Shown: positions 44,809 to 55,935 of the stretch, in pieces
Layout: the number at the start of each line of letters is the position of its first letter
Numbering within the stretch: position 1 is the stretch's first letter
Translations under genes and position numbers: made by a program
DNA from: Botrimarina mediterranea
GTDB lineage: Bacteria; Planctomycetota; Planctomycetia; Pirellulales; Lacipirellulaceae
DNA length: 64,000 bases
Reading direction: 5' to 3'
Assembly (NCBI RefSeq): GCF_007753265.1
Contig: NZ_CP036349.1
Span: 830,363 to 894,362, forward strand
Notes under the pieces: model-generated
The model's input: only the letters and a program-made list of their open reading frames with translations
The model's database searches: none
What the model was told of the DNA's origin: nothing

Positions 44809-45133
44809 CGAGGGCGTGTCGGGGTCGATTGAGCGCTGATATTCCTACCGAGGCGAAGGCGCAAGCCGTCGCAGGCCCTCCAGCGGGAAGGAGGCCGCGT
44901 AGAACTAGAAAAAGCGCAACCTCACCACAAGACCGATGGCGGCTCCTGAGCCAATCGGGGCAAAGTTTTGCCCCCGGGCACGCCGATACGGCGGCGCCGC
45001 TAGCCCGCACTGCTAGCAAGAAGAGAAGCGAACCACAAAGGAACGACGGAACAAAGGGAAACGGACCTTCAAAAAACACTCCGTTTCCCTTTGTTCCTTT
45101 GAGGTTCAAATCTGGAGAACCCGGCGACGCTAG
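44809..45133. other. Spacer between bamA and dnaB
   Basis: About 325 bases with no convincing gene. It holds the word-type inverted repeat at 45030-45107. Because bamA and dnaB are both on the minus strand, this spacer is downstream of dnaB and should contain the bamA promoter; no promoter could be identified with confidence. Confidence 0.55.
45030..45107. repeat. Inverted repeat built from 8-bp tandem words
   Basis: The left arm contains four consecutive octamers at 45035-45066: ACAAAGGA, ACGACGGA, ACAAAGGG, AAACGGAC. The right arm is its reverse complement over 18 perfect bases (45048-45065 with 45080-45097) and, after an 8-base bulge of one word, continues to 45107. The loop is 14 bases. 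Downstream of dnaB on the minus strand. Confidence 0.8.
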
Positions 45134-46624
45134 CTAACCGAACGAGTTGTCCCCGCCGCCGTAGCCGCCGGCGAACTCGTCGTACTGCTGCGGCGCCCGG
45201 TTGGTGAACCGGGTGAAGTCGTGCAGCCACGTGAGCTTCACGTCACCTACCGGGCCGGCGCGTTGCTTGCGGATGATCAGCTCCGCCTCGCCGCGGAGGC
45301 GTTCGCGGTCCTCTTCGTTCGTCGCGTAGTACTCTTCACGGTGGATGAACATCACCACGTCCGCGTCTTGCTCGATCGCGCCCGACTCACGCAGGTTCGA
45401 TAGCTGCGGCTTGTTGTCCCGGGAGGCCTCGGTCTGGCGGTTGAGCTGCGCTAGGCACAGCACCGGCACATCGAGCTCACGCGCCAGGCCCTTGAGCCGC
45501 CGGGCGATCTTCGCCACCTGTTCCTGCCGTGGGTCGCGCGAGTTGTCGGGGTCGATCAGCTGCAAGTAGTCGATGACAATCAGCCCGAGCCCTTCTTTCC
45601 GCTTCAGCCGCCGCGCCGCCGCTGAGATTTCCGTCATCGTCCGGCTCGGCGAGTCGTCGATGTAGAGCGGCGCCGTGCTGATCTCCGCCGCGGTGCGGAT
45701 CAGCTTCTGACTCTCCTCGACCTTGATCTGGCCGGTGCGTACGCGGTGCCCGCTCACATGCGCGCGAGAGCAGAGCAGTCGGTCGCCCAGCTCGAGCGCC
45801 GCCATTTCGAGGCTGACAAACAGCGTCGGGTGCTGGCAGTTGATCGCGACGTGCTCGACGATGTTCATCGCGAGCGCCGTTTTGCCCATGGAAGGACGCG
45901 CCGCGAGGATCACTAGCTGCGAGCCGTGCAGGCCGCCGGTCATCTCGTCGAAGTCATCGAACCCCGTCTCGATGCCGCCGAAGGCGTGCTCGTTCTTCAT
46001 CCGCGCGTCGATCCGTGCGATCGACTCGGTCAGCACATCGCGGATCGTCGTGACCTGCCCGTGCCCCTTTGTTTCGAGGATGCCGAAGACGCGTTCCTCC
46101 GCGCGGCTCAGCAGCTGCCGCGGCTCCATCGTCGGGTCGTAGGCGTCGCGGAGGATGTCCGTCGAAGCCTCGATGAGGCCGCGGAGCGTCGCCTTCTCAC
46201 GGACAATCTGCGCGTAGTACTCGGCGTGAGCCGCCGTTGCCACGGCGCCGCTCAGTTCGGCTAGGTACGCGTTGCCGCCGATCGCCTCGAACTCGCCCTT
46301 GTCGCGCAGCCGCTGGATCAGCAGCATCACGTCGATCGCCGCGCCCTCGTCGTGCATCGCCGCCATATGGCGGTAGATGCGGCGGTTGGCGTCGTCGAGA
46401 AAATCATCCGCGCCCAGGATCAGGGCGACGTCGTCGGCGACCTCCGGCAATAACAGCAAACTGCACAGCACGGCCCGCTCGGCCTCGAGGCTCTGCGGCA
46501 GCTGCCGTTCGAGGAGGCTCTCGGCCTTAATCGGCGGCGGGGCGTGTCCGTCACGCCCATCTCGCCGGAAGCGTTTCCCCTCGCCGCTGGTCTCGTTACG
46601 GTCGCGCGAATCGCCGATCGACAT
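45134..46624 (-). CDS. dnaB: Replicative DNA helicase DnaB
   Basis: A 496-residue hexameric replicative helicase. N-terminal domain (about 40-145; LPQSLEAERAVLCSLLL, DANRRIYRHMAAMHDEG), linker, and RecA-like C-terminal domain (about 200-480) with Walker A AARPSMGKTALAMNI, LSLEM-like FVSLEMAALELGDRLL, Walker B LGLIVIDYLQLID and the arginine-finger region RHREEYYATNEED-like IHREEYY. A charged N-terminal extension of about 35 residues precedes the family domain. It is the last gene of the rpsF-ssb-rplI-dnaB cluster, the usual bacterial arrangement. Confidence 0.96.
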   Translation of the reverse strand: MSIGDSRDRNETSGEGKRFRRDGRDGHAPPPIKAESLLERQLPQSLEAERAVLCSLLLLPEVADDVALILGADDFLDDANRRIYRHMAAMHDEGAAIDVMLLIQRLRDKGEFEAIGGNAYLAELSGAVATAAHAEYYAQIVREKATLRGLIEASTDILRDAYDPTMEPRQLLSRAEERVFGILETKGHGQVTTIRDVLTESIARIDARMKNEHAFGGIETGFDDFDEMTGGLHGSQLVILAARPSMGKTALAMNIVEHVAINCQHPTLFVSLEMAALELGDRLLCSRAHVSGHRVRTGQIKVEESQKLIRTAAEISTAPLYIDDSPSRTMTEISAAARRLKRKEGLGLIVIDYLQLIDPDNSRDPRQEQVAKIARRLKGLARELDVPVLCLAQLNRQTEASRDNKPQLSNLRESGAIEQDADVVMFIHREEYYATNEEDRERLRGEAELIIRKQRAGPVGDVKLTWLHDFTRFTNRAPQQYDEFAGGYGGGDNSFG

Positions 46625-46734
46625 AAGAGTCCGCTCCTTCGAACCAAGGCGAGCCGGGAGCGTCAGCGCCCGGAGTGCAGTAGAGATCGTCTAACGATCG
46701 GATCGATGCCGCCGAGGGCCATCGCTTGCGATCC

Positions 46735-46811
46735 AATGACCAAGCCCCAATGTCCAATGATGGCGGAGCGGCAGCTCCCTATTGGTCATTGGGGCTTCGT
46801 CGTTGGTCATT
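46735..46811. repeat. Inverted repeat built from 7-bp tandem words, family 1 copy 1
   Basis: Left arm heptamers ATGACCA, AGCCCCA, ATGTCCA, ATGATGG; right arm ATTGGTC, ATTGGGG, CTTCGTC, GTTGGTC, ATTCC. The arms pair over AAGCCCCAATG(T/A)CCAAT with one mismatch, and the right arm has one extra heptamer. The same words make the perfect 29-bp inverted repeat at 54506-54587. Located between dnaB and rplI. Confidence 0.8.
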
Positions 46812-46849
46812 CCGCATGACGCTATCCTAAATCAGTCTCCATCAAAGAG

Positions 46850-46882
46850 CGAGGCAGCCGTCCCATCGGAACGGCTGCCTCG
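46850..46882 (-). terminator. Terminator after rplI
   Basis: CGAGGCAGCCGT and ACGGCTGCCTCG form a perfect 12-bp stem with a nine-base loop; read on the minus strand it is followed by CTCTTTGA. It lies 34 bases past the rplI stop. Confidence 0.75.
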
Positions 46883-46916
46883 TGTATCTAACTGCTAGCA
46901 GCAGCTGAGGTTAGCT

Positions 46917-47447
46917 TCAATCGCCAACGGCGGGGACGACCCAGACCTTGAGCTCGCCCTCGACCTCGCTGGAGAAGCGGATCTTGACGGTGTAGAGGCC
47001 CAGCTCCTTGAGCACGCCCTCGAGCTTGATCTGCTCGGCGGCCATCGTGATGCCCTGCTTCTTCAGGGCGGCGATGATCTCCACCGCGCCGACGCTTCCG
47101 TAGAGGTGACCCTCTTCGGTGGCCTTGGCCTCGATCGTGACGCTCTGCTTGGTGATCTCGGCGGCCTGCTTACGTAGTTCGGCCTGCCGTTCACGCTCGA
47201 TCTCGGCGAGCTTCGCCTTGTGCTTATCGACCATCCGCTTGTGGTGGTCGTTGGCGATCGTGGCGAGCCCCTCAGGGATGAGGTAGTTCAGGGCGTAGCC
47301 CGACTTGACCTCGACGACTTCGCCTTGCTTGCCGAGGTGCTCGACCGATTGGATCAAGAGCAGCTGCACGCCGCCGCTAGGGCCGAGCGGCAGGCGCTTG
47401 GCGCGGGTCGGGGTGCGCTTGAGTTTCTTCTGCTTGGTAGTGGCCAT
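46917..47447 (-). CDS. rplI: 50S ribosomal protein bL9, with N- and C-terminal extensions
   Basis: A 176-residue bL9. The conserved N-terminal domain starts near residue 27 (VQLLLIQSVEHLGKQGEVVEVKSGYALNYLIP), followed by the long helix (DHHKRMVDKHKAKLAEIERE) and the C-terminal domain (GHLYGSVGAVEIIAALKKQG). Compared with the usual protein of about 150 residues, it has about 25 extra basic residues (TTKQKKLKRTPTRAKRLP) at the N-terminus. The ATG is well placed. Gene order rpsF-ssb-rplI-dnaB supports the assignment. Confidence 0.95.
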   Translation of the reverse strand: MATTKQKKLKRTPTRAKRLPLGPSGGVQLLLIQSVEHLGKQGEVVEVKSGYALNYLIPEGLATIANDHHKRMVDKHKAKLAEIERERQAELRKQAAEITKQSVTIEAKATEEGHLYGSVGAVEIIAALKKQGITMAAEQIKLEGVLKELGLYTVKIRFSSEVEGELKVWVVPAVGD

Positions 47448-47456
47448 GGCTGCTTA

Positions 47457-47534
47457 AGTGGGCAGTGGGCAGTAGGCAGTGGGCAGGAAGCCGTGAGCAA
47501 AAAACCGCCCACTGCCGACTGCCGACTACCCACT
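47457..47534. repeat. Inverted repeat built from 7-bp tandem words, family 2
   Basis: Six uninterrupted heptamers at 47457-47498: AGTGGGC, AGTGGGC, AGTAGGC, AGTGGGC, AGGAAGC, CGTGAGC. The right arm has four at 47507-47534: GCCCACT, GCCGACT, GCCGACT, ACCCACT. The arms pair over about 28 bases with a few mismatches. It fills the spacer between ssb and rplI and touches the ssb stop codon. Confidence 0.82.
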
Positions 47535-48025
47535 CAAAATGGAATATCGTCTTCGGGCGGGGCTGCGGGCGCCGACGAGTAGTTGTCGTACCCGCCGCCG
47601 CCGTAGCCGCCGTCATCGCCGCTGTCATAACTATCTTGCTGGCGAGCGGGGGCCCTCGAGCCGGTACTGCGCGAGCCGCCTCCACCGCCGCCACCCTCGC
47701 CGCGTCCGCCGAGCATCTGCATCTTCTCGGCCACGACCCGTAGCTTCGACCGCTTCTGGCCGTCCTTCTCCCAGGTGTCGAGCTTCAGCCGACCCTCGAT
47801 CAGGATACTGGAGCCTTTATTGAGATACTGATTCGCGACCTCGGCGGTGCGGCCCCACAGGGTCACATCGACGAAAGTTGTTTCATCGACCCACTGGTCA
47901 CCCCGCTTGACGCGATCGTTGACCGCCAGGCCGATCTCGGCCACAGCGGTCCCGCTGGGGATGTACCGTAGTTCGATGTCGCGCGTCAGGTTGCCGACAA
48001 GGACGACTCGGTTGTAGCTGGCCAT
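47534..48025 (-). CDS. ssb: Single-stranded DNA-binding protein
   Basis: A 163-residue SSB from ATG 48025 (the frame is open 12 codons further but conserved sequence begins [20 protein letters not shown]). The OB-fold covers about 1-105 ([33 protein letters not shown]), then a Gly/Ser/Asp/Tyr-rich disordered linker and the protein-binding tip EDDIPF at the very C-terminus. It binds single-stranded DNA during replication and repair and sits between rpsF and rplI as usual. Confidence 0.95.
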
Positions 48026-48083
48026 GGAGGTTCGCCACGGGGCTAAAGACGCGGTGAGCAAAAAACGTTCAGCGGACTCGGGT

Positions 48084-48488
48084 TCAATCCCCGTCGCCCG
48101 AACCGGCGAACTCGGCGACCGGGGCGGCTTCGCCCTCGCCCGCGGGTCCGTGGACCGGCGCCGAGGCGGCGTGCTCGAGGATCGGCTCGACCAGACGCGG
48201 ATGAATCTTCAGCACCATGTGCCGCAAGACGCCGCTCTTGAGCTCGCAGGCGCGGTTGAGACCGGTGATCTTGTCTCCCTCGGTGCGGAAGTAGATCAGC
48301 CAATAGGCGCCCTTGCGCTGACCCTTGATCGGGTAAGCGAGGCGGCGCTCCTCCCAGAGGCGGCTGACGACGACCTCGCCCCCTTCGGAGGTGATCATCT
48401 CTTCTACCGCCTTGGGCAACGCGTCGTGATCCCGAGCGAACTTGTTCGCGTCGAAGATGAACAGGCCTTCGTAAACGTTCTGTGCCAA
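48084..48488 (-). CDS. rpsF: 30S ribosomal protein bS6
   Basis: A 134-residue bS6: [13 protein letters not shown] at the N-terminus, [18 protein letters not shown] and [17 protein letters not shown] in the core, then a C-terminal Ala/Glu/Gly-rich extension. The first in-frame codon that keeps the conserved N-terminus is TTG (48486-48488); the next ATG would remove it. No Shine-Dalgarno site is visible. Followed by ssb on the same strand with a 58-base spacer. Confidence 0.95.
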
Positions 48489-48571
48489 GGGAGTCGCCCT
48501 CGTTGGCGGCGCCGCGGCGCCGCGTGATGGTTGAAGTATCGCTGAGCTTTATCTCGTGTCGGCGGCTTGTC

Positions 48572-49141
48572 TCACGACCCGACGCCGTTGAACTTGTTCA
48601 TCGCTTCGAGGACGCCCGCTTTCGCCCAGCAGGCGACCGCGGCGGCCGCGTCGGCGATCGCCACATCGACCAATTCACGCTCCTTCGGAGCAAACCGGCC
48701 GAGCACGAAGTCCGACGCGCTGCGTCCGCTGGGGACCGGGCCGACCCCAATCCGCAGGCGGTGGTAGTCTTCGGTCCCCAGCTGCCGGGCCACGTCCTTC
48801 AGCCCGTTTTGTCCGCCCGAAGAGCCTTTCGCCCGGACCCGCAACCGCCCTGTCTCCAGGGCGAAGTCGTCGCAGACCACCAGCAGCTCTTCTAACGGCG
48901 TCTTGTAGAACCCAACGGCTTGGCGGACCGCCTTGCCGCTGAGGTTCATAAAGGTTTGCGGCCAAACAAGCAGCGTTCGCTGCCCTTCGACCATCGCCTC
49001 GGCGACGTAGCTGTCGAACTTCGACTTGGGCGTCTCGGCAGACCACTGATCCGCCAGGAGCCGCAAAGCATCGAAGCCGACGTTGTGCCGCGTCGCCTCG
49101 TACTGTTTGCCCGGGTTGCCGAGGCCTACGACGATCTTCAT
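48572..49141 (-). CDS. pth: Peptidyl-tRNA hydrolase
   Basis: A 189-residue Pth from ATG 49141: KIVVGLGNPGKQYEATRHNVGF contributes the Asn and catalytic His of the family; TFMNLSGKAVRQAVGFY, LLVVCDDFALETGRLRVR and GGQNGLKDV are the other signature segments. It recycles tRNA from prematurely released peptidyl-tRNA. The frame is open 22 codons upstream, but that part overlaps the spacer to rplY and is not conserved in character. Its position between rplY (ctc) and rpsF is typical. Confidence 0.95.
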   Translation of the reverse strand: MKIVVGLGNPGKQYEATRHNVGFDALRLLADQWSAETPKSKFDSYVAEAMVEGQRTLLVWPQTFMNLSGKAVRQAVGFYKTPLEELLVVCDDFALETGRLRVRAKGSSGGQNGLKDVARQLGTEDYHRLRIGVGPVPSGRSASDFVLGRFAPKERELVDVAIADAAAAVACWAKAGVLEAMNKFNGVGS

Positions 49142-49207
49142 CGGCCCGTCCCCCAAAGCATCTCCCCCTCCAGTGGCCAAGGGCCAACGGCGAGGGGCGT
49201 TTCGCAT

Positions 49208-49837
49208 TTATTCGTCGGCGCCTTCCTGCTCGCCGCCCTTCTGGATCACTTCCGGAGCGGCAGCGGCCGCCGCCGCCTCGTCTTCCTTCGACGCGCCCGC
49301 CGGCGGCACGCAGTGGACCAGCACCGTGTCGGCTTCGGTCAGCAGCTTGGCGCCCTCGGGGAGGTCGGTGATGTCGCTTGCCGAGAGGCTGCCACCCATG
49401 TGCAGTTTGGTGACGTCCAAGTGCAGCACCTCCGGGATGCTCGCCGGGGCGGCCTCGATCTCGACGTGGTCGAAGACGACCGTGACAACGCCACCCTCAT
49501 TCAGGCCAGCGGCCTCGCCCTTGGTCTCGATCGGCACGGTCACGTGGACGCGCTCACCGGCATCGACCCGCAGCAGGTCAACGTGCAGCAGGTCACGGTG
49601 AAACGTATCCCATTGCAGAGCCTGGATGATCGCCTGACCCGAGGCGTCGCCGCTCAGGTTGACGACCTTCGCCTTGTGGGCGAGCGACTTGCGAAGCTCG
49701 GTGAATTGCAGCGACAGGCTGACCGGGGCTTCCTTGTGGCCGTACAGGACGGCGGGGATGAGCCCCTCGGCCCGCAGACGCATGCTGGCGCGCGAGCCAA
49801 TCTTCTCCCGCTTGGCGGCGGTGAGCGTATCCGACAT
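49208..49837 (-). CDS. rplY: 50S ribosomal protein bL25, CTC/TL5 type
   Basis: A 209-residue bL25 of the long CTC type from ATG 49837, with GAGGAG seven bases upstream. The N-terminal 5S rRNA-binding domain (about 1-95) has REKIGSRASMRLRAEGLIPAVLYG; the C-terminal domain (about 96-185) has GVVTVVFDHVEIEA and HLDVTKLHMGGSL. It ends in an acidic Ala/Glu-rich tail. pth follows 66 bases later. The gene normally follows prs directly; here a PEP-CTERM gene and a long inverted repeat lie between. Confidence 0.93.
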   Translation of the reverse strand: MSDTLTAAKREKIGSRASMRLRAEGLIPAVLYGHKEAPVSLSLQFTELRKSLAHKAKVVNLSGDASGQAIIQALQWDTFHRDLLHVDLLRVDAGERVHVTVPIETKGEAAGLNEGGVVTVVFDHVEIEAAPASIPEVLHLDVTKLHMGGSLSASDITDLPEGAKLLTEADTVLVHCVPPAGASKEDEAAAAAAAPEVIQKGGEQEGADE

Positions 49838-50452
49838 CAAAAACTCCTCGGAACGGCGGACCCACAATCCCTTTCAACAAAGGAACCAATGCGGCTCAGC
49901 CCGGACGGGGTAAGGTGCTGCTCTCACCGCGGCAGGCCCTTCTGGGAGCCGCCGGACCGGCGAGAATCGCGGAGTATCGCAGATTTCCACTGAAGATCAA
50001 GGCCTGCAAACCGGCGGTTTCCCCCGCTTGCTGGCAGGAGGGGCGATCTTTGGCGAGCCGGGGACGTCAGTCCTCGGTGGGGAGTGGGTACGCGCCGTCC
50101 ACCGAGGACTGACGTCCCCGGCTCGCCCCCCCCCCAGCGGCGGCACCCATTTTTTGTACGTCGCGGGGTTGCCGCCTCTCACCGCCCGCCTAAAGAACAA
50201 CAAGCCCGTCCTTGAAGATTAGCCAATCGCCTTCAACCGACTGCTAATGACCCGTCGAGCCGGTAACGTGCGATTCCGCTCCTGAGAGTCGCTCGGCCAT
50301 TTCTTTTGGCCGTCTCCGGTGTTTGCGACTTCCGTCTCCGCATCCCGACCTCTGGGAGCGGCCTCGCTGCTCTACCCCTGCGGTGAAAATCCGCTCCTGC
50401 GCGACCGTTAAATCACTGACCTCGCCCCGTTTCACCTTTGAGGAGATTCCCC
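49838..50452. other. Spacer between rplY and a divergent PEP-CTERM gene
   Basis: About 615 bases with no convincing gene. It contains the 29-bp perfect inverted repeat at 50052-50127 with a run of C residues directly after it (50125-50135). It must include the promoters for rplY and the PEP-CTERM gene, but none is clear. Confidence 0.55.
50052..50127. repeat. Perfect 29-bp inverted repeat
   Basis: 50052-50080 (GGCGAGCCGGGGACGTCAGT then CCTCGGTGG) and 50099-50127 are exact reverse complements, with an 18-base loop. Arms are GC rich and not made of short tandem words. It lies upstream of rplY, so it is not a simple terminator for that gene. Confidence 0.9.
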
Positions 50453-51100
50453 ATGAAGCGTCTTACGACCGCTCTGGTGGCCGCCCTGGCTGTTCCAACG
50501 CTCGCCTTCGCTCAAGCCGACGTGCAGAGCGGCTTCACCAGCGTCGCCCTCGACACGGCGACGCTCAGCGCTGCCGCCGGCCTCGACCTTTCCAGCGTCT
50601 CGCCTGGAATCGGCGCCGGAACGCTGCCGGGCTCGGTGGCTTTCCCAATCAACGCCCGCGACGCCGCGACGCTGCCGACGACCTTCACGTACACGCCCAA
50701 CGACTTCCCGACGGGTCCCTTCAGCGGATCGATCGAGCACACCGGCTCGGTGTTCTTCAACGCCGACGCCGTTGAGGTTGGTAACTTCACGATCGGCTTC
50801 GACGCCGCCCGTGCGGTCGGCGCCGCTAGCGGCTTCTACGTCGAGAGCACAACAGGCGTCGCCGCGATCCTGTTCGACACATCCGTCGTCGCCCTCGACT
50901 CGGCGAGCGAATCGCAACTGGACCTAACGGTCGACCTGCTCGTCTCGCCAGAGTTCGCGTCGTTCCTGGGAGACACGGCCCTGACCGGCGCCGACGTCGG
51001 CGACGCCCGCATCCTGGCCGCCATCCCCGAACCGACAAGCCTCTCGCTGCTAGGCGTCCTCGGCGGCGTCGCGTGCCTTGCCCGCCGCATTCGCAGCTAA
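50453..51100 (+). CDS. PEP-CTERM protein of unknown function inserted in the ribosomal cluster
   Basis: A 215-residue exported protein from ATG 50453, with GGAG eight bases upstream. Signal peptide about 1-22 (ALVAALAVPTLAFAQA), a beta-rich Ala/Thr/Ser-rich domain (FTYTPNDFPTGPFSGSIEHTG, VEVGNFTIGFDAARAV) and a PEP-CTERM tail (IPEPTSLSLLGVLGGVACLA, RRIRS). I do not recognise the domain. It is on the strand opposite to the flanking rplY and prs genes and interrupts an otherwise conserved order. Confidence 0.8.
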   Translation: MKRLTTALVAALAVPTLAFAQADVQSGFTSVALDTATLSAAAGLDLSSVSPGIGAGTLPGSVAFPINARDAATLPTTFTYTPNDFPTGPFSGSIEHTGSVFFNADAVEVGNFTIGFDAARAVGAASGFYVESTTGVAAILFDTSVVALDSASESQLDLTVDLLVSPEFASFLGDTALTGADVGDARILAAIPEPTSLSLLGVLGGVACLARRIRS

Positions 51101-51203
51101 CCGTAGAGACTATTCACCGTCGCAGGCGGCGTTCCACTCAGTTCCCGTGGAGCGCCGCCGCGTTGGGTGAACGCGTCGCGCGCAGGCACAACGAAGTTGA
51201 GAT

Positions 51204-51289
51204 AACCACGACGGACACAAAGAGCACGACGGCCGACATTGGGACGGACCATGCCACTCTAATACGGTGCCTTCGTGTCCTTCGTGGTT
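51204..51289. repeat. Inverted repeat built from 9-bp tandem words
   Basis: Three consecutive nonamers at 51207-51233: CACGACGGA, CACAAAGAG, CACGACGGC. The right arm at 51267-51289 (GTGCCTTCGTGTCCTTCGTG then GTT) has two nonamers and pairs with the left arm imperfectly. It lies between the PEP-CTERM gene and the end of prs. Confidence 0.75.
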
Positions 51290-51314
51290 AAAATTAACTA
51301 GGCGCGCCTTAGCG

Positions 51315-52277
51315 TTAGCGGAACAACTTACTCACCGACTCATTGCGGTGAATCCGCTTGATCGCCTCGCCCAGTGTCGGGCCGACGTCCAACACGTGCG
51401 TTTGCGGCAGTCGCTGGGCTTCGGTCAGCGGGATCGAGTTGGTGCAGACCAGACTCGCCAGGTTCGCCTCCCGTAGCCGCTCCATCGCCGGGCCGCAGAG
51501 GACGGCGTGCGTCGCGCCGACGTGGATCGCCTTGACGCCATGATCGTGCAGCACTTTGGCGGCGCCGCTGATCGAGCCGGCCGTGCTGATCATATCGTCG
51601 AACATCAGGGCCGTGCGGCCCTCGATCGGCCCGCCGAGGATGTTGGCCTGGACGGTCGTCGTCGGCCCGGTGCGGCGCTTGTCGATGATCGCCACCGGAG
51701 CCCCGCCCGAGCGGTCGGCGCCGAGGCGTTTGGCGTGCCCCAGGGCGCGCTTGATGCTCCCCTCGTCGGGGCTCACCACGACGATGTCCTCGTCGGCCGG
51801 CAGGGTGTTGCGGAAGTAGTCCGTCAGCACGGGCGCCGCGTAAAGGTGGTCCACCGGCACATCGAAGAAGCCCTGGATCTGCGCGGCGTGCAGGTCCATC
51901 GTCAGCACCCGGTTGGCGCCCGCGCGGACGATGCAGTTGGCGACGAGCTTCGCCGTGATCGGCACCCGGCCTTCGTCCTTGCGGTCCTGTCGGGCGTAGC
52001 CGAAGTAGGGGATGACCGCCGTGATCCGTTCGGCGCTGGCCCGCAGACAGCTGTCGATCATCACCAGCAGTTCGACGAGGTTGTCGTTGACCGGCGGGCA
52101 GGTCGGCTGGATCAAGAAGACGTCGCGGCCGCGGACGTCCTCGTCGATCTTGCAGCTGATCTCGCCGTCCGGGAAACGCCCCAGCGAAATCCGCCCCAGC
52201 GGCACGCCGAGGTAGTCGGCGATGGATTGGCTGAGCCGAGGATTGGCGCCGCCGCTGAAGAGCTTGAGGTCGTGCAT
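51315..52277 (-). CDS. prs: Ribose-phosphate pyrophosphokinase
   Basis: A 320-residue PRPP synthetase: KLFSGGANPRLSQSIADYL at the start, GEISCKIDEDVRGRDVFLIQ, YFGYARQDRKDEGR (ATP/flexible loop region), DLHAAQIQGFFDVPVDH (metal/ribose-5-phosphate), VVSPDEGSIKRA and LMFDDMISTAGSISGAA (PRPP loop). It makes PRPP for nucleotide, His and Trp synthesis. It follows the GlmU-like gene at 81 bases on the same strand; the spacer contains a heptamer repeat. Confidence 0.96.
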   Translation of the reverse strand: MHDLKLFSGGANPRLSQSIADYLGVPLGRISLGRFPDGEISCKIDEDVRGRDVFLIQPTCPPVNDNLVELLVMIDSCLRASAERITAVIPYFGYARQDRKDEGRVPITAKLVANCIVRAGANRVLTMDLHAAQIQGFFDVPVDHLYAAPVLTDYFRNTLPADEDIVVVSPDEGSIKRALGHAKRLGADRSGGAPVAIIDKRRTGPTTTVQANILGGPIEGRTALMFDDMISTAGSISGAAKVLHDHGVKAIHVGATHAVLCGPAMERLREANLASLVCTNSIPLTEAQRLPQTHVLDVGPTLGEAIKRIHRNESVSKLFR

Positions 52278-52284
52278 CGAGGGG

Positions 52285-52364
52285 GAGTTGTGAGTCTTGA
52301 GTCGCGAGTTGTGAGTGTTGGGGCTCAGGCCGATTCCTCAAGCCTGTCACCTCAAGCCTCAATC
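52285..52364. repeat. Two blocks of 7-bp tandem words
   Basis: Five exact-period heptamers at 52285-52319: GAGTTGT, GAGTCTT, GAGTCGC, GAGTTGT, GAGTGTT; then four at 52337-52364: CTCAAGC, CTGTCAC, CTCAAGC, CTCAATC. The two blocks are related as rough reverse complements (CTTGAG against CTCAAG). The second block overlaps the stop codon of the uridylyltransferase gene. Confidence 0.75.
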
Positions 52365-53174
52365 CTTGTTCATCTTCTTCATTTCCGCTTCCACCACCGC
52401 CAAGTCCGCCAGCGTGTTCACGCTCAGCGCCTCGCACGGCTGCAGCGCCGCCAAAGCCCGCACGTCCTTGCCAGCGCCGAGCAGAATGCCCGGGCAGTCG
52501 GTGACGTAGTACTCGCCCTGGGCGTTGTTGGTCGTGAGTCGGTCGAGCGACGCGCTCAGGTCCGGGGCGTTGAACACGTACGTGCTCATGTTCACCTCGG
52601 TGACCTTCAATTGCTCGGGCGTGCAATCCTTGTGTTCGACGATCCCCACGAACTTGCCATCGCTGTCGCGGACGATGCGGCCTAATCCGGTCGGGTCGTC
52701 GCGGTGGGCGGTGCCGAGCAGGCAGGCCGGCTGCGTCGTGGCGAATTCGTCCAGCAGAGACCGCACGCTCGAAACCTGGAGCATCGGCGAGTCACCCGTC
52801 ACGATAATCACCGGACCCGTGCGGCCCATCAGGTAATCGCGGCACATCATCACGGCGTGCCCCGTGCCGAGCTGCTCGGTCTGGAGGGCGAAATCAACCC
52901 CCGGTTCGCCGGCGAGCTCCTGCTGCACCAGCTCGGCCTTGTAGCCAACGACCACAACGATCTTCTGCACGCCCGCTTCGCGGAGGGCGTCCACGACATA
53001 GCGGACCATCGGCCGCCCGGCGACGGGCACCAGCACCTTGGGCAGCTCGGACTCCATCCGCGTCCCCTTGCCGGCCGCCAGAACGATGGCCATCGGGGCG
53101 TCGGGCGGAGGTCCCTCGGTTAGCGGAGCCGGGTCAGGCAACGGTGCAGAGGCGGGCGACGGGGCGAGGGACAT
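52359..53174 (-). CDS. GlmU-like nucleotidyltransferase lacking the acetyltransferase domain
   Basis: A 271-residue protein from ATG 53174. After a Pro-rich N-terminal stretch of about 28 residues comes a nucleotidyltransferase domain with AIVLAAGKGTRMESELPKVL, GTGHAVMMC, VTGDSPML and GEYYVTDCPGIL, similar to the uridylyltransferase half of GlmU. The left-handed beta-helix acetyltransferase half, normally about 200 residues, is absent, so this protein could make only UDP-sugar from sugar-1-phosphate. Acetylation would need another enzyme. Gene order with prs-rplY-pth matches the glmU position of other bacteria. Confidence 0.83.
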   Translation of the reverse strand: MSLAPSPASAPLPDPAPLTEGPPPDAPMAIVLAAGKGTRMESELPKVLVPVAGRPMVRYVVDALREAGVQKIVVVVGYKAELVQQELAGEPGVDFALQTEQLGTGHAVMMCRDYLMGRTGPVIIVTGDSPMLQVSSVRSLLDEFATTQPACLLGTAHRDDPTGLGRIVRDSDGKFVGIVEHKDCTPEQLKVTEVNMSTYVFNAPDLSASLDRLTTNNAQGEYYVTDCPGILLGAGKDVRALAALQPCEALSVNTLADLAVVEAEMKKMNKD

Positions 53175-53541
53175 GCGAGCGATTCGGGGCTGTCTGGCGA
53201 TCGGACCGCCGCCGCAGAGCAGCGACGACCGCTCAATCATCGCCGAAGCGTCCGTCAGGTTCCAGGACCGCCGGCCGCGCAGCCGGCTCTCGACATTGGG
53301 ATGAGGATGGCAGGGTCTGAGGATCTGAGGGCCCGCGCAAGCGTTCCTCGGTCCTCCCTCAGCCCCTCAGATCCTTAGCCCCTAACCCCTCCCCTGCCGC
53401 CAACCTGGACCCGACGCCAGAACCCGCGTAAATTGCGGGATTCGGCGAACCGCGACCCTTGGTCCCTCGTACCCGCACCTCCAACAGCCCGTGCCCTAAT
53501 GGATTGGGGTTCGCTCCCCCTTTGCCCCGCTGCCCGAAGCC
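53175..53541. other. Divergent spacer between the GlmU-like gene and argB
   Basis: About 370 bases without a convincing gene, holding an octamer-type inverted repeat (53312-53383). It should carry promoters for both the GlmU-like gene and argB. The frame of the GlmU-like gene remains open for 22 codons beyond its start but the residues are not conserved in character. Confidence 0.5.
53312..53383. repeat. Inverted repeat of 8-bp words
   Basis: AGGGTCTGAGGATCTGAGGG on the left pairs with CCCTCAGATCCTTAGCCCCT on the right with two mismatches. The right block shows a period of eight: CCCTCAG, CCCCTCAG, ATCCTTAG, then CCCCTAA. Located upstream of argB and the GlmU-like gene. Confidence 0.7.
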
Positions 53542-54468
53542 GTGCCCGATACCGTCCCTAAGAAAGCGATCCAGAAAGCCGACGTCCTCATCGAGGCGAT
53601 GGGGTGGATCCGCCGGTTCCGTGACAGCGTCACCGTCATCAAGCTCGGCGGCAGCCTGCTCGACGACGCCGAGGCCTTGCGCCACCTGCTGATTGACATC
53701 GTCTTCATGGAGACCGTCGGCATGCGGCCCGTCGTCGTCCACGGCGGCGGCAAGGCCGTGAACCAGGCGATGGCCGCCGCCGGTCTCGAGCCCCGCTGGG
53801 TTCAGGGACGCCGCTACACCGACGACGCCACTCTCGGCATCGTCGAGAAGGTCCTCGGCGGCGAGCTCAACGAGTACATCGCCGGCAAGATCGAAGAGTA
53901 CGGTGGCCGTGCCATGCCGCTGAACACGACCGGCGAGACCAACAACAACGTCCTCTACGGCGAGCGGATCACGCTGGACGGGGAGAACGGAGAGCAGCTC
54001 GACCTTGGTCACGTCGGCCACGTCACCCGCGTCGATCGCGACGCGATCGAGAACCTCTGCTTCGCCGGCCAGGTTCCAGTGATCCCCTGCCTTTGTGAGT
54101 CCGAGGAGGTCGTGGACGGCAAGCGACAGCTCTTCAACGTCAACGCCGACACCGCCGCAATGGCCGTCGCCGAAGCCCTCGGCGCTGAGAAGCTCGTCTT
54201 CCTCAGCGACGTCAACGGGGTGCTGCTCGACAAGGACGACCCGGGTAGCCGCATCGGCACGCTGTCGCCGTCGAAGTCCAAGGAACTGATCGCCAGCGGC
54301 GTCATCGCCGGCGGCATGATCCCCAAGGTCGAAGCCTGCCTCCAGACGCTCCAGAACGGCGTCGGCAAGGTCCACATCGTCGACGGCAAGCTCCGCCACT
54401 CCCTACTGCTAGAGATCTACACCAACCACGGCGTCGGCACCCAGATTGTGAATGAACCCGCAGCGTAG
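53542..54468 (+). CDS. argB: Acetylglutamate kinase
   Basis: A 308-residue ArgB starting at GTG. Motifs: [13 protein letters not shown] (phosphate-binding Gly loop), [33 protein letters not shown] and [32 protein letters not shown]. It phosphorylates N-acetylglutamate, the second step of ornithine/arginine synthesis. argD and argF follow on the same strand, each after a repeat-bearing spacer. Confidence 0.95.
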
Positions 54469-54505
54469 GGCCGGTGTCTCTCGGCTTTCCGCTACCTTCG
54501 CCAAG

Positions 54506-54587
54506 TGACCAATGACCAAGCCCCAATGACCAATTGATTCAGACATAGCCCCACTCTCATTGGTCATTGGGGCTTGGTCATTGGTCA
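54506..54587. repeat. Perfect 29-bp inverted repeat built from 7-bp words, family 1 copy 2
   Basis: The left arm (54506-54534) is TGACCAA, TGACCAA, GCCCCAA, TGACCAA, T; the right arm (54559-54587) is its exact reverse complement, with a 24-base loop. It uses the same words as the repeat at 46735-46811. It fills most of the argB-argD spacer, whose extended reading frame would otherwise lengthen argD. Confidence 0.9.
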
Positions 54588-54599
54588 TTAAATACCTTT

Positions 54600-54621
54600 G
54601 CGTCCTCCGCGCACTCCGCGG
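54600..54621. repeat. 9-bp tandem words before argD
   Basis: GCGTCCTCC, GCGCACTCC and the start of a third copy (GCGG) follow each other with a period of nine, eight bases before the argD ATG. It sits just after the heptamer inverted repeat. Confidence 0.6.
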
Positions 54622-54629
54622 TAAATCCC

Positions 54630-55850
54630 ATGTCGGCAACCGCAGAATCCACCATGTCGCCCGCCACGGCGGACCTCTACAAGAACTACGTCGTCCCCAA
54701 CTACGGCCGCTACCCGGTCTGTTTGGTGCGCGGCGAGGGGTCGTGGGTCTGGGACGACCAGGGACGCAAGTACCTCGACTTCTTTCCGGGGTGGGGCTGC
54801 AACCTGCTGGGCCACTGCCCGCCGGCCGTCGTCGAAGCCGTGCAGGAGCAGGTCGCCACGCTGATCCATGTCCCTAACAGCTGGCACACCGAGGCCCAGG
54901 GTCTCTGGGCCAAGATGCTCAGCGAGCGTTCGTTCGGCGGTAAGGCGTTCTTCTGTAACTCGGGCGCCGAGGCCAACGAGGCCGCCATCAAGCTCGTGCG
55001 GCTTCACACACCCGAGGATCGCTACAAGATCATCACGTTCACCGGCGGCTTCCACGGCCGCACGATGGGCGCCGTCAGCGCCACGGCCCAGCCCAAGTAT
55101 CACCAGGGCCTGGGGCCGATGGTGGCCGGCTTCGAGTACGCCCCCTTCGGCGACCTCGAGGCGGTCCGCGAACTCGTCGATGACGAGACCGCCGGCATCA
55201 TGATCGAGCCCATCCAGGGCGAGGGCGGCGTCCGTATGCCCCCCGCGGGATTCCTCCGAGGCCTCCGTGACATCTGCGACGAGAACGGCCTGCTGCTGGT
55301 CTTCGACGAGGTCCAAGCCGGCTGCGGCCGCACGGGCGATTGGTTCGCGTACCAGACTCCGTCTCTGAGTGAGGGCGGCGTCACGCCCGACGTGATGACG
55401 CTCGCCAAGAGCCTTTGCGGTGGCGTCGCCGGCGGCGCGATGTTGACGACCCCCGAGATCGCCCCCAGCCTCCGCCCCGGCATGCACGCCGCCACCTTCG
55501 GCGGCAACCCACTCGCCGCCCGCGCCGGCATCGCCACGCTCGAGACGATCGAACGCGAAGGCCTGCTCGAGCGCTGCAAGCAGATCGGCGAGCGCTTCAA
55601 GGCGAAGCTATCGCCGCTTGTCGATGAGCTGCCGCACGTGAAGGAAGTCCGCGGCGTCGGCGTGATGATCGGCATCGAGCTGCTCGTCGAGGGCGCGCCG
55701 GTCGTCGCCGAGTGCATGAAGCGCGGCCTCTTGATCAACTGCACGCAGGGAACGGTCGTCCGTCTGCTCCCCGCGATGAACCTCAGCGACGCCGAGTGCG
55801 ACGAGGGCTGCGAAATCCTCATCGACGCGCTCCGCGGCGTAGCGAGCTGA
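54630..55850 (+). CDS. argD: Acetylornithine aminotransferase (PLP class III)
   Basis: A 406-residue aminotransferase. Motifs: [87 protein letters not shown], and the PLP lysine in TLAKSLCGG. It makes N-acetylornithine from the semialdehyde. The ATG at 54630 is chosen because the 21 codons upstream in frame are the repeat DNA, not conserved protein; ATG 54654 is another option. It lies between argB and argF. Confidence 0.94.
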
Positions 55851-55900
55851 TCGTAGCGCCGCGCGTCGATACTAAGCGACTACTCCCCCTGCGAAGCGTT

Positions 55901-55935
55901 CATTCCGCATCCCGCAATACCCTTTCCGCATTCCT
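55901..55935. repeat. Five 7-bp tandem words abutting the argF start
   Basis: CATTCCG, CATCCCG, CAATACC, CTTTCCG, CATTCCT run without interruption and end exactly at the argF ATG (55936). This leaves no Shine-Dalgarno site within the tract. Confidence 0.7.

Follow-up and report, generated by a model that had tools for sequence, protein, structure and literature searches.

Tandem-word hairpins in the spacers of Botrimarina mediterranea: probable gene-less copies belonging to two classes of miniature hairpin elements

Introduction

Between bamA and argF, in a stretch of 64,000 nucleotides of Botrimarina mediterranea (contig NZ_CP036349.1, positions 830,363 to 894,362; hereafter the window), the gene spacers hold short words repeated in tandem, many of them arranged as inverted repeats. 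Are these tracts one class of sequence and, if so, what made them? As far as the accessible parts of the papers go, TAACTGA heptamers are tandem and largely intergenic (PMC4679880), and inverted pairs have been reported both for the GGGAATC heptamers of Xanthomonas (PMC4692102) and for octamers and heptamers of Geobacter (PMC2700814). A preliminary description of the window held that inverted word pairs are not known to be described as one class; such pairs had already been reported genome by genome.

Results

Tracts between bamA and argF

The preliminary description listed nine spacer tracts of exact period, at least five of them paired as inverted repeats. All nine could be read close to where they had been placed, but the word "exact" is too strong, several being degenerate (Table 1). 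Specifically, Tandem Repeats Finder at score 30 gave rows at 47457, 47507, 52285, 53312, 53356, 54501, 54557 and 55901, with 62–92% matches, and none at the degenerate tracts at 45035, 46735, 51207 and 54600. An ungapped scan found six inverted pairs, and none at the 52285 tract. The AGTGGGC hairpin has no match among the arms of the gene-bearing loci of this genome (G000). At the 54600 site, a by-eye comparison showed both a left and a right arm in the sister species. The accessory region at 2–44 kb had been said to be free of tracts and, in agreement, the 4,418 bp of spacer within positions 1–44,500 of the window contain one inverted repeat, compared to 120 in the 68,785 bp of spacer in the remainder of the same 424-kb segment.

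Table 1. Tandem-word features in the bamA–argF part of the window (positions counted from its first nucleotide).
Feature	Position	Inverted pair (ungapped scan)	Basis
Hairpin without gene, 8-bp words, GAACC...GGTTC ends, GxxExxY class	45030..45107	45048-45097	matches arms of locus L221
TGACCAA hairpin without gene, 7-bp words, four-helix-bundle class	46730..46815	46733-46806	matches arms of locus L220
AGTGGGC hairpin without gene, 7-bp words	47456..47536	47458-47533	Tandem Repeats Finder and ungapped scan
Hairpin without gene, 9-bp words AACCACGACGGAC..., AACC...GGTT ends, GxxExxY class	51202..51292	51203-51290	ungapped scan
Tandem tract GAGTNNT, 7 bp, weak pairing	52284..52362		Tandem Repeats Finder
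Hairpin without gene, 8-bp words ATCTGAGG / CCTCAGAT	53311..53391	53312-53383	Tandem Repeats Finder and ungapped scan
TGACCAA hairpin without gene, argB-argD spacer, perfect 29-bp arms	54503..54590	54506-54587	ungapped scan
Apparent orphan right arm, 9-bp CGCGGAG words	54596..54626		by eye
CATTCCG tract, 7 bp, weak, unpaired	55900..55934		Tandem Repeats Finder

Abundance of tandem-word hairpins and spread of their words

The number of tracts was compared with shuffled controls in 273 spacers (79,705 bp) taken from 464 kb of this genome around the window. Tracts of period 7, 8, 9 and 10 numbered 34, 30, 25 and 11, against shuffled means of 1.6, 1.6, 1.2 and 2.2, which for periods 7, 8 and 9 is about 20 times the shuffles. 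Period 14 gave 24 tracts against 1.8, and periods 4–6 and 11–13 gave 1–3 tracts each against 1.1–2.4. In coding DNA of the same length period 9 is also common (17.1, codon-derived), with 2.2 tracts of period 7 and 1.3 of period 8. In addition, the spacers of the 464 kb hold 125 inverted repeats, compared to 0, 2 and 0 in three shuffles, and TGACCAATGACCAA, with at most 2 mismatches, occurs 164 times in the genome, compared to 10 times for its reversed pattern. Shuffled spacers thus remain far below the observed number. In conclusion, the short repeat hairpins are a real, genome-wide class, and the common design proposed earlier for tracts of differing words stands, with inverted pairing as one of its features.

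Copies without a gene are many; their arms are conserved, their loops variable and their sites unrelated. The TGACCAA copies have a common order of units, and in most of the copies shown a GCCCCAA-like unit fills one slot. Orthologous spacers of sister species carry differing words, and the gene-less hairpins differ between sisters.

We take the word of the cyanobacterial STRR2 repeat to be TTGGTCA. The suspected tie to cyanobacterial heptamers proved real: the exact 21-mer (TTGGTCA)x3, for which we calculate about 0.1 match by chance, is present in at least 116 public-genome stretches, and the 80 matches listed include Cyanobacteria, Bacteroidota, Planctomycetota, Verrucomicrobiota, Gemmatimonadota and Desulfobacterota/'Deltaproteobacteria'. 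In these stretches, mostly cyanobacterial, an exact two-copy rule classed 122 TTGGTCA array clusters as unpaired and 3 as paired. Long tandem-word arrays are present in some genomes.

Two gene-bearing classes with different word lengths

Longer copies contain a single ORF of about 120–130 codons within inverted tandem-word arms. In class H, the words are mostly of 7 bases and the ORF encodes a TIGR02436/PF05635 four-helix bundle, the Avd-related '23S IVS protein'; in class G, words of 8–11 bases, often with an AACC...GGTT cap, surround the gene of a GxxExxY protein (TIGR04256/PF13366). Taking an arm score of at least 15 as enclosure, and counting only loci with full flanks, 50/56 PF05635 and 39/53 PF13366 genes were enclosed, compared to 0/23 argB control loci. 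When tandem-word arms were required as well, the numbers were 48/56 and 37/53, against 4/563 background genes, of which 3 code for GxxExxY; this background consists of called genes only, and the gene finder missed the GxxExxY gene of locus L224, calling nothing between 947,763 and 948,235. In this genome, loci L217 and L219 (10.5), L225 (14.5) and L226 (11.0) score under the threshold. The preliminary description had missed both the gene link and the split between words of 7 and of 8–11 bases.

The period of the better arm was 7 in 46/50 H loci and in 1/39 G loci (Fisher p 2e-19), and 8–11 in 36/39 G loci. In conclusion, word length, 7 versus 8–11, marks two classes, H and G; by this period rule the cognate protein of a repeat is predictable from sequence alone. 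Period 8 is seen in two H copies on plasmids. One class H copy lies on plasmid C of Trichormus variabilis ATCC 29413. All nine of the named plasmid records opened carry inverted tandem-word arms, and some arms are of reversed polarity, those of plasmid locus L395 among them.

In other phyla, enclosure was found for 20/23 H and 15/24 G loci, against 2/111 and 10/112 in a partner-swapped null; low-scoring H loci gave 12/17 against 3/97. For G the null is not low (12/118 and 10/112) because words are common to several loci, and the argB null (34/88) carries no information because coding flanks that are homologous and of mixed orientation pair among themselves.

Covariation of arm words, proteins and gene presence

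Arm 6-mers are correlated with protein identity (Mantel r 0.50 for G, n=38, and 0.36 for H, n=42; p 0.0002 each), and the 12 genes of one genome have separate words for each. Among 57 genomes, at least 4 TGACNAAx2 sites occurred in 17/38 of those with PF05635 and in 1/19 of those without, and an AACC-word excess of at least 20 in 14/35 with PF13366 and 0/22 without; matching words are not abundant in relatives lacking a gene family. The TGACNAA words do not trace to one protein clade; they belong to two subtypes instead (6/66 loci, p 0.22).

The two enclosed proteins

In 43 GxxExxY sequences, E32, D71, E81 and Q95 are invariant and K83 is conserved in at least 90%. The family is PDDEXK_3 in Pfam, its structural model has a pLDDT of 97, and its best PDB matches are PD-(D/E)XK nucleases (probability 0.85-0.99, E 4e-3 to 3e-2). 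With this acidic/lysine core in the right fold, GxxExxY is predicted to be PD-(D/E)XK nuclease-like. The four-helix bundle matches S23 and Avd in fold, with a TM of 0.78 to 4dwl, its sequence score to Avd being weak and a catalytic site not obvious. A four-helix-bundle protein of Xanthomonas, XCC0516, has the structure 2GSC.

Two orthologous GxxExxY copies are under purifying selection (pN/pS 0.116/0.759 and 0.226/0.830). The two comparable gene-bearing copies retain their site between sister species, and gene-bearing copies occur at one site across genera; such fixation could reflect a benefit to the host. Enclosed ORFs lie in sense in 65/68 codirectional spacers, compared to 78/91 for ordinary small genes (Fisher p 0.06), and a special orientation bias is not clear from these figures.

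Discussion

All together, these data make it likely that the tracts belong, as copies without a gene, to two classes of miniature hairpin elements that would work like REPIN-RAYT systems with unrelated proteins. We further lean towards a one-gene hairpin architecture common to the two proteins, in which the protein sets the word length, 7 for the Avd-like and 8–11 for GxxExxY. In such elements, the protein would recognise the words repeated in its own arms once these have folded into a hairpin, as single-stranded DNA or as RNA, word length being the footprint of the protein class, and would help copy hairpins into other spacers. GxxExxY would probably cut at the hairpin or at the target, followed by repair synthesis, and the four-helix bundle may keep the folded strand in place for a polymerase acting in trans, the part that Avd plays for a reverse transcriptase. 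Neither a transposition event nor a precise empty site was observed; G000 and G001 are too diverged for exact empty sites to be compared.

The hairpins might instead be binding sites of a host regulator, spread by recombination and selection, with the enclosed protein as regulator or partner and the genes beneficial and in operons. Purifying selection agrees with this, as does the fact that gene-bearing copies have long kept to one site, and so do the paired octamers and heptamers of Geobacter, annotated in the text available as sites where a global regulator is predicted to bind (PMC2700814). However, orthologous spacers of sister species differ in their words, the 12 genes of one genome each have their own, and numerous gene-less copies, conserved in the arms and variable in the loop, sit in unrelated places, which leaves the regulator reading unlikely, if worth keeping in view. 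Alternatively, the enclosed genes could be passengers, arms and ORF being moved in trans by a reverse transcriptase, a RAYT or another enzyme. The lack of an obvious catalytic site in a bundle that resembles a reverse-transcriptase accessory protein is what a passenger would show, and RAYT/REP elements are nested in tandem-word loops. Nevertheless, little besides the two unrelated proteins is found inside such arms (4/563 background genes, 3 of them GxxExxY), protein sequence co-varies with arm words, and the five Y1_Tnp genes are flanked by arms of another kind or by none that scored (2/5 reach a score of 15, both with REP arms). We hold passengers to be rather unlikely and, on these grounds, also discount a RAYT as mover of the tandem-word families.

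The origin and role suggested in the preliminary description fare worse. A role in ending or processing transcripts would suit long stems, would-be RNase III targets, and the distribution of inverted repeats as a whole, which are commoner between convergent genes (present in 26/41 convergent, 65/184 codirectional and 10/48 divergent spacers). The tandem-word hairpins themselves are not commoner between convergent genes (5/34, convergent spacers being 41/273), and a terminator scan limited to loops of 3-8 bases lists 0/6 paired tracts; such a role is very improbable. Slippage with template-switching at quasi-palindromes does yield tandem units and mutually matching arms, and the long arrays of some genomes fit it. 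That each tract arose anew in this way, recurring by chance or composition, is nevertheless barely credible given the unit order with its GCCCCAA-like slot common to many loci, one 21-mer in six phyla and the gene link; slippage alone explains neither the shared TGACCAA order nor the gene-carrying copies.

If the mobile-element reading is true, the heptamer and octamer repeats scattered between the genes of several phyla would be parts of one superclass of miniature mobile DNA, the nuclease class would be a previously undescribed kind of mobile element, and the literature on STRR, TAACTGA, GGGAATC and octamer repeats would have one possible common explanation. The 'four helix bundle protein' and 'GxxExxY protein', whose roles are obscure, would gain a testable one; GxxExxY with words of known spacing would be a small enzyme-site pair, a candidate for direct in vitro work. 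In planctomycetes, cyanobacteria and others, a heavy load of repeats between genes could reflect element activity.

Heptamer repeats and the rRNA IVS are already known. In the text available from a search of largely non-subscription journals, we found no literature joining either gene to tandem-word hairpins, or such repeats to both genes as one class. Like STRRs, the tracts are tandem heptamers of a recurring word and largely intergenic; in the accessible text of the STRR, heptamer and octamer reports (PMC4679880, PMC4692102, PMC2700814) the words are not tied to four-helix-bundle or GxxExxY genes. Class H alone resembles the 23S rRNA IVS, described in the portion available as about 430 nt with terminal inverted repeats and a PF05635/S23 ORF in the loop (PMC4990558). 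Unlike the IVS, the elements described here lie between protein genes, have tandem-word arms and gene-less relatives, and include a second, nuclease-like class; across 12 gene-bearing loci in this genome there is no Rfam match above gathering score, and the flanks read as protein genes. The class H protein shares the four-helix fold of the Avd of diversity-generating retroelements, as far as the accessible account goes (PMC10053308). MITEs and classical transposons differ by their target-site duplication, absent in 15 TGACCAA copies (longest end repeat 1.33 vs 1.07, sd 0.29). There is a likeness to REPIN-RAYT, and REP/RAYT-like families (L210-L212) also occur in this genome: according to the parts of the reports at hand, both have gene-less inverted doublets, extragenic and in many copies, with conserved arms and a variable spacer, and both have a gene flanked by similar arms (PMC3116915, PMC8049555). 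The arms of REPINs are small palindromes in the same text; the arms here read as tandem words of 7 or 8–11 bases, and the enclosed proteins, PF05635 or PF13366, are unrelated to Y1/HUH transposases.

Repeat load of the spacers

Together with the window (bases 830,363-894,362) we compared 400 kb more of the B. mediterranea genome (G000; 5.87 Mb, single contig) and a 323-kb contig of its congener G001. In 273 G000 spacers, tracts of period 7, 8, 9 and 10 numbered 34, 30, 25 and 11, where shuffling gave means of 1.6, 1.6, 1.2 and 2.2; periods 4-6 and 11-13 gave only 1-3 tracts each (shuffled, 1.1-2.4). The G001 spacers held 13, 4 and 7 tracts of period 7, 8 and 9 (shuffled, 1.0, 2.1 and 1.5). The period-7, -8 and -9 tracts of the preliminary description are part of an excess over shuffled spacers. 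Its claim that many are inverted pairs also stands: six of the nine tracts it noted were recovered among the 125 inverted repeats of the G000 spacers (0, 2 and 0 in three shuffles; G001, 57 versus 0, 0 and 0). Likewise, no such tract had been noticed in the 2-44 kb region, and window 1-44500, with 4,418 bp of spacer, holds one inverted repeat where about 8 are expected from the adjoining density; given the scant spacer and the single repeat, it may be a newly acquired stretch.

By simple rules, the 125 repeats comprised 44 REP-like repeats, 43 tandem-word hairpins (34 by the lag rule alone) and 38 others. The REP-like repeats form two families, of 16 and 28, one adjoining a Y1_Tnp (RAYT) gene at locus L210, the second adjoining one at L211. 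The gene at L212 has REPs of a third type beside it. The tandem-word hairpins are distinct from these families; REP-like pairs are sometimes nested in their loops, and L210 is itself a nested element (see table). In the family adjoining the L211 gene, the GAGCC...GGAG/GGTG ends are constant and the stem words vary, in what look like compensating changes; parts of its window copy weakly match Rfam Acido-Lenti-1.

The TGACCAA copies displayed had a common layout of GAATGACCAATGACCAAGCCCCAATGACCAATGA, a variable loop and the complement of GAATGACCAATGACCAAGCCCCAATGACCAATGA. The left arm was TGACCAA in these pairs, a GCCCCAA-like unit took the same slot in most copies, and the loops were not alike. 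Scored against Rfam, the two window hairpins reach 46.6 bits (E 4e-7) with MIR2600, short of the gathering score of 98; this microRNA family might be founded on a hairpin of this type. TTGGTCA arrays (loci L093-L208) were mostly unpaired and some were long, suggesting that growth or spread of arms on their own may occur as well, most of all in cyanobacteria.

Positions of named repeats and examples of plasmid-borne copies
Feature	Location	Arm score	Period
TGACCAA hairpin	window 54504-54589		
TGACCAA hairpin	window 46728-46815		
Gene-bearing TGACCAA copy	G000:312,648-313,098		
REP-like pair in tandem-word loop	G000, 1,001,624		
REP-like pair in tandem-word loop	G000, 1,130,935		
L210, RAYT gene and its REP pair within outer tandem-word arms	G000:C1:938314-941631		9
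REP-like copy, L211 family	G000:C1:880414-880489 (window 50052-50127)		
REP-like copy, L211 family	G000:C1:908786-908861		
REP-like copy, L211 family	G000:C1:926982-927056		
Four-helix copy	Trichormus variabilis ATCC 29413 plasmid C		7
Plasmid copy	Pseudanabaena galeata, between cas6 and cas4		7
Plasmid copy	Picosynechococcus PCC 7003, between cas10 and cmr3-family gene	14.5	8
GxxExxY copy	Sphingomonas parapaucimobilis, between fabD and fabG		8
Four-helix copy	Gemmatirosa plasmid		8

Genes enclosed by the arms

One TGACCAA copy carries about 390 protein-coding bases between its arms, the first codons being readable from the arm itself. The gene belongs to PF05635, the '23S rRNA-intervening sequence protein' or four-helix-bundle family. 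G000 has six PF05635 genes (seven matches, one gene being split in two), five of them enclosed, that is, between inverted arms scoring at least 15; for the sixth (L217/L219) the score is 10.5, and both of its flanks carry period-7 words. The AACC-capped longer words were suspected to belong with GxxExxY genes (PF13366, TIGR04256). Of these G000 also has six, four enclosed and two scoring 14.5 (L225) and 11.0 (L226); some lie between apparent operon genes, such as rpoB/rpoC and gatA/gatB, as read by eye. No two of the twelve genes have the same arm word.

The association was assayed in 57 genomes of the order and in 34 found through a TTGGTCA scan, whose choice by word biases gene frequencies and, to a lesser degree, the arm test. 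Each search contributed no more than its 30 best-scoring loci, and those shorter than 3,000 bases, truncated at contig ends, were excluded (12/65 GxxExxY, 9/65 PF05635). Among these best-scoring full-length loci, 39/53 GxxExxY and 50/56 PF05635 genes were enclosed, compared with 0/23 argB control loci. Partner-swapped nulls gave 3/134 and 2/111 for PF05635, and 12/118 and 10/112 for PF13366, where words are common to several loci. Tandem-word arms flanked 4 of the 563 predicted genes of three segments, three being GxxExxY genes and one a REP pair; a further GxxExxY gene (L224), missed by the gene finder, falls outside this count. Low-scoring PF05635 loci were enclosed in 12 of 17 full-length cases (20 fetched; null, 3/97), including a Bacteroidales locus (L361) with TGACCAAx3 arms.

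The two families differ in period. Of the 50 enclosed PF05635 loci, 46 had a better arm of period 7 (one each of 6, 8 and 9; one weak); among the 39 enclosed GxxExxY loci the better arm had period 8, 9, 10 and 11 in 15, 9, 10 and 2 cases (one of period 7; two weak). The left arm was purine-rich in 41/50 and 36/39, respectively.

Plasmids carry both classes: among 72,556 plasmid records the four-helix query had 23 matches (8 typed conjugative) and the GxxExxY query 8. All nine places opened, of 18 listed, had inverted tandem-word arms (scores 14.5-32); at a Gemmatirosa GxxExxY copy (L395) the arms are of reversed polarity and adjoin a gene-less hairpin.

Words, proteins and turnover

Arm words co-vary with the enclosed protein. 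Arm 6-mer overlap correlated with protein identity for GxxExxY (Mantel r 0.50, n=38, p 0.0002) and PF05635 (r 0.36, n=42, p 0.0002), shared descent of some loci adding to this; a counter-example is TGACNAA words, found with two protein subtypes.

Words also follow gene presence across the 57 genomes, which are related and thus not independent points. At least four TGACNAAx2 sites occurred in 17/38 genomes with PF05635 versus 1/19 without, and an AACC-capped excess of at least 20 over the reversed control in 14/35 with PF13366 versus 0/22 without. Because the two genes co-occur, each word pattern correlates with both (rho 0.71 and 0.58; 0.51 and 0.39), but partial rank correlations are higher for the matching gene (0.43 versus 0.21; 0.39 versus 0.18).

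Gene-less copies turn over. Of 35 gaps compared between G000 and G001, 14 contained an inverted repeat in at least one of the two genomes; a tandem-word arm common to both was seen by eye in the argB-argD spacer alone. Gene-bearing copies can persist at one site: apgM is flanked on both sides by GxxExxY elements in G000, G001 and G003, and a downstream one also occurs in G013, G005 and G006. In G007 the downstream element is inverted and the upstream side shows a partial match, whereas G009 has a fragment and G002 neither element; no GxxExxY element was found at the remaining apgM loci compared. The apgM-lysC spacer is a recurrent landing or retention site; in several genera (L365-L387) it is occupied, depending on the genus, by GxxExxY elements, by TGACGAA hairpins or by other repeats.

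Between G000 and G001, pN/pS was 0.116/0.759 and 0.226/0.830 for two GxxExxY copies. The enclosed ORFs ran in the direction of both neighbours in 65/68 codirectional spacers; as ordinary small genes did so in 78/91, a special orientation bias is not proven.

Enclosed proteins and possible mechanism

Eight residues (G27, G29, E32, Y35, D71, E81, Q95, N112) do not vary among 43 GxxExxY sequences, and K83 is almost invariant. The structure model (pLDDT 97) is closest to the PD-(D/E)XK nucleases SSO0001, LHK-Exo and lambda exonuclease, at probabilities of 0.85-0.99 and with E values that, at 4e-3 to 3e-2, all exceed 0.001; the sequence had no match among PDB chains at E 1. The four-helix-bundle model (pLDDT 96.8) resembles 2gsc (TM up to 0.89), 2rld (0.74-0.79), Avd 4dwl (0.77-0.78) and DGR reverse-transcriptase complexes (0.74-0.76).

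In conclusion, the tandem-word tracts are very probably gene-less copies within element families that also have gene-bearing members, and we lean towards their hairpins being mobilised by the enclosed proteins. Each protein would bind its own words in the folded strand and drive hairpin copying in trans; GxxExxY may provide the cutting step, and the four-helix bundle may hold the strand for a polymerase. Were mobilisation by GxxExxY to be demonstrated, this class would be a new kind of element.

Searches of an open-access library turned up no account that brings together heptamer/octamer pairs, rRNA IVS and Avd, and none of the nuclease class or the period rule. Pairs of heptamers and of octamers have already been published, as have rRNA IVS and the connection to Avd (PMC4692102, PMC2700814, PMC4679880, PMC4990558, PMC10053308). 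Both the rRNA IVS and the REPIN-RAYT system have part of their design in common with the tandem-word elements.
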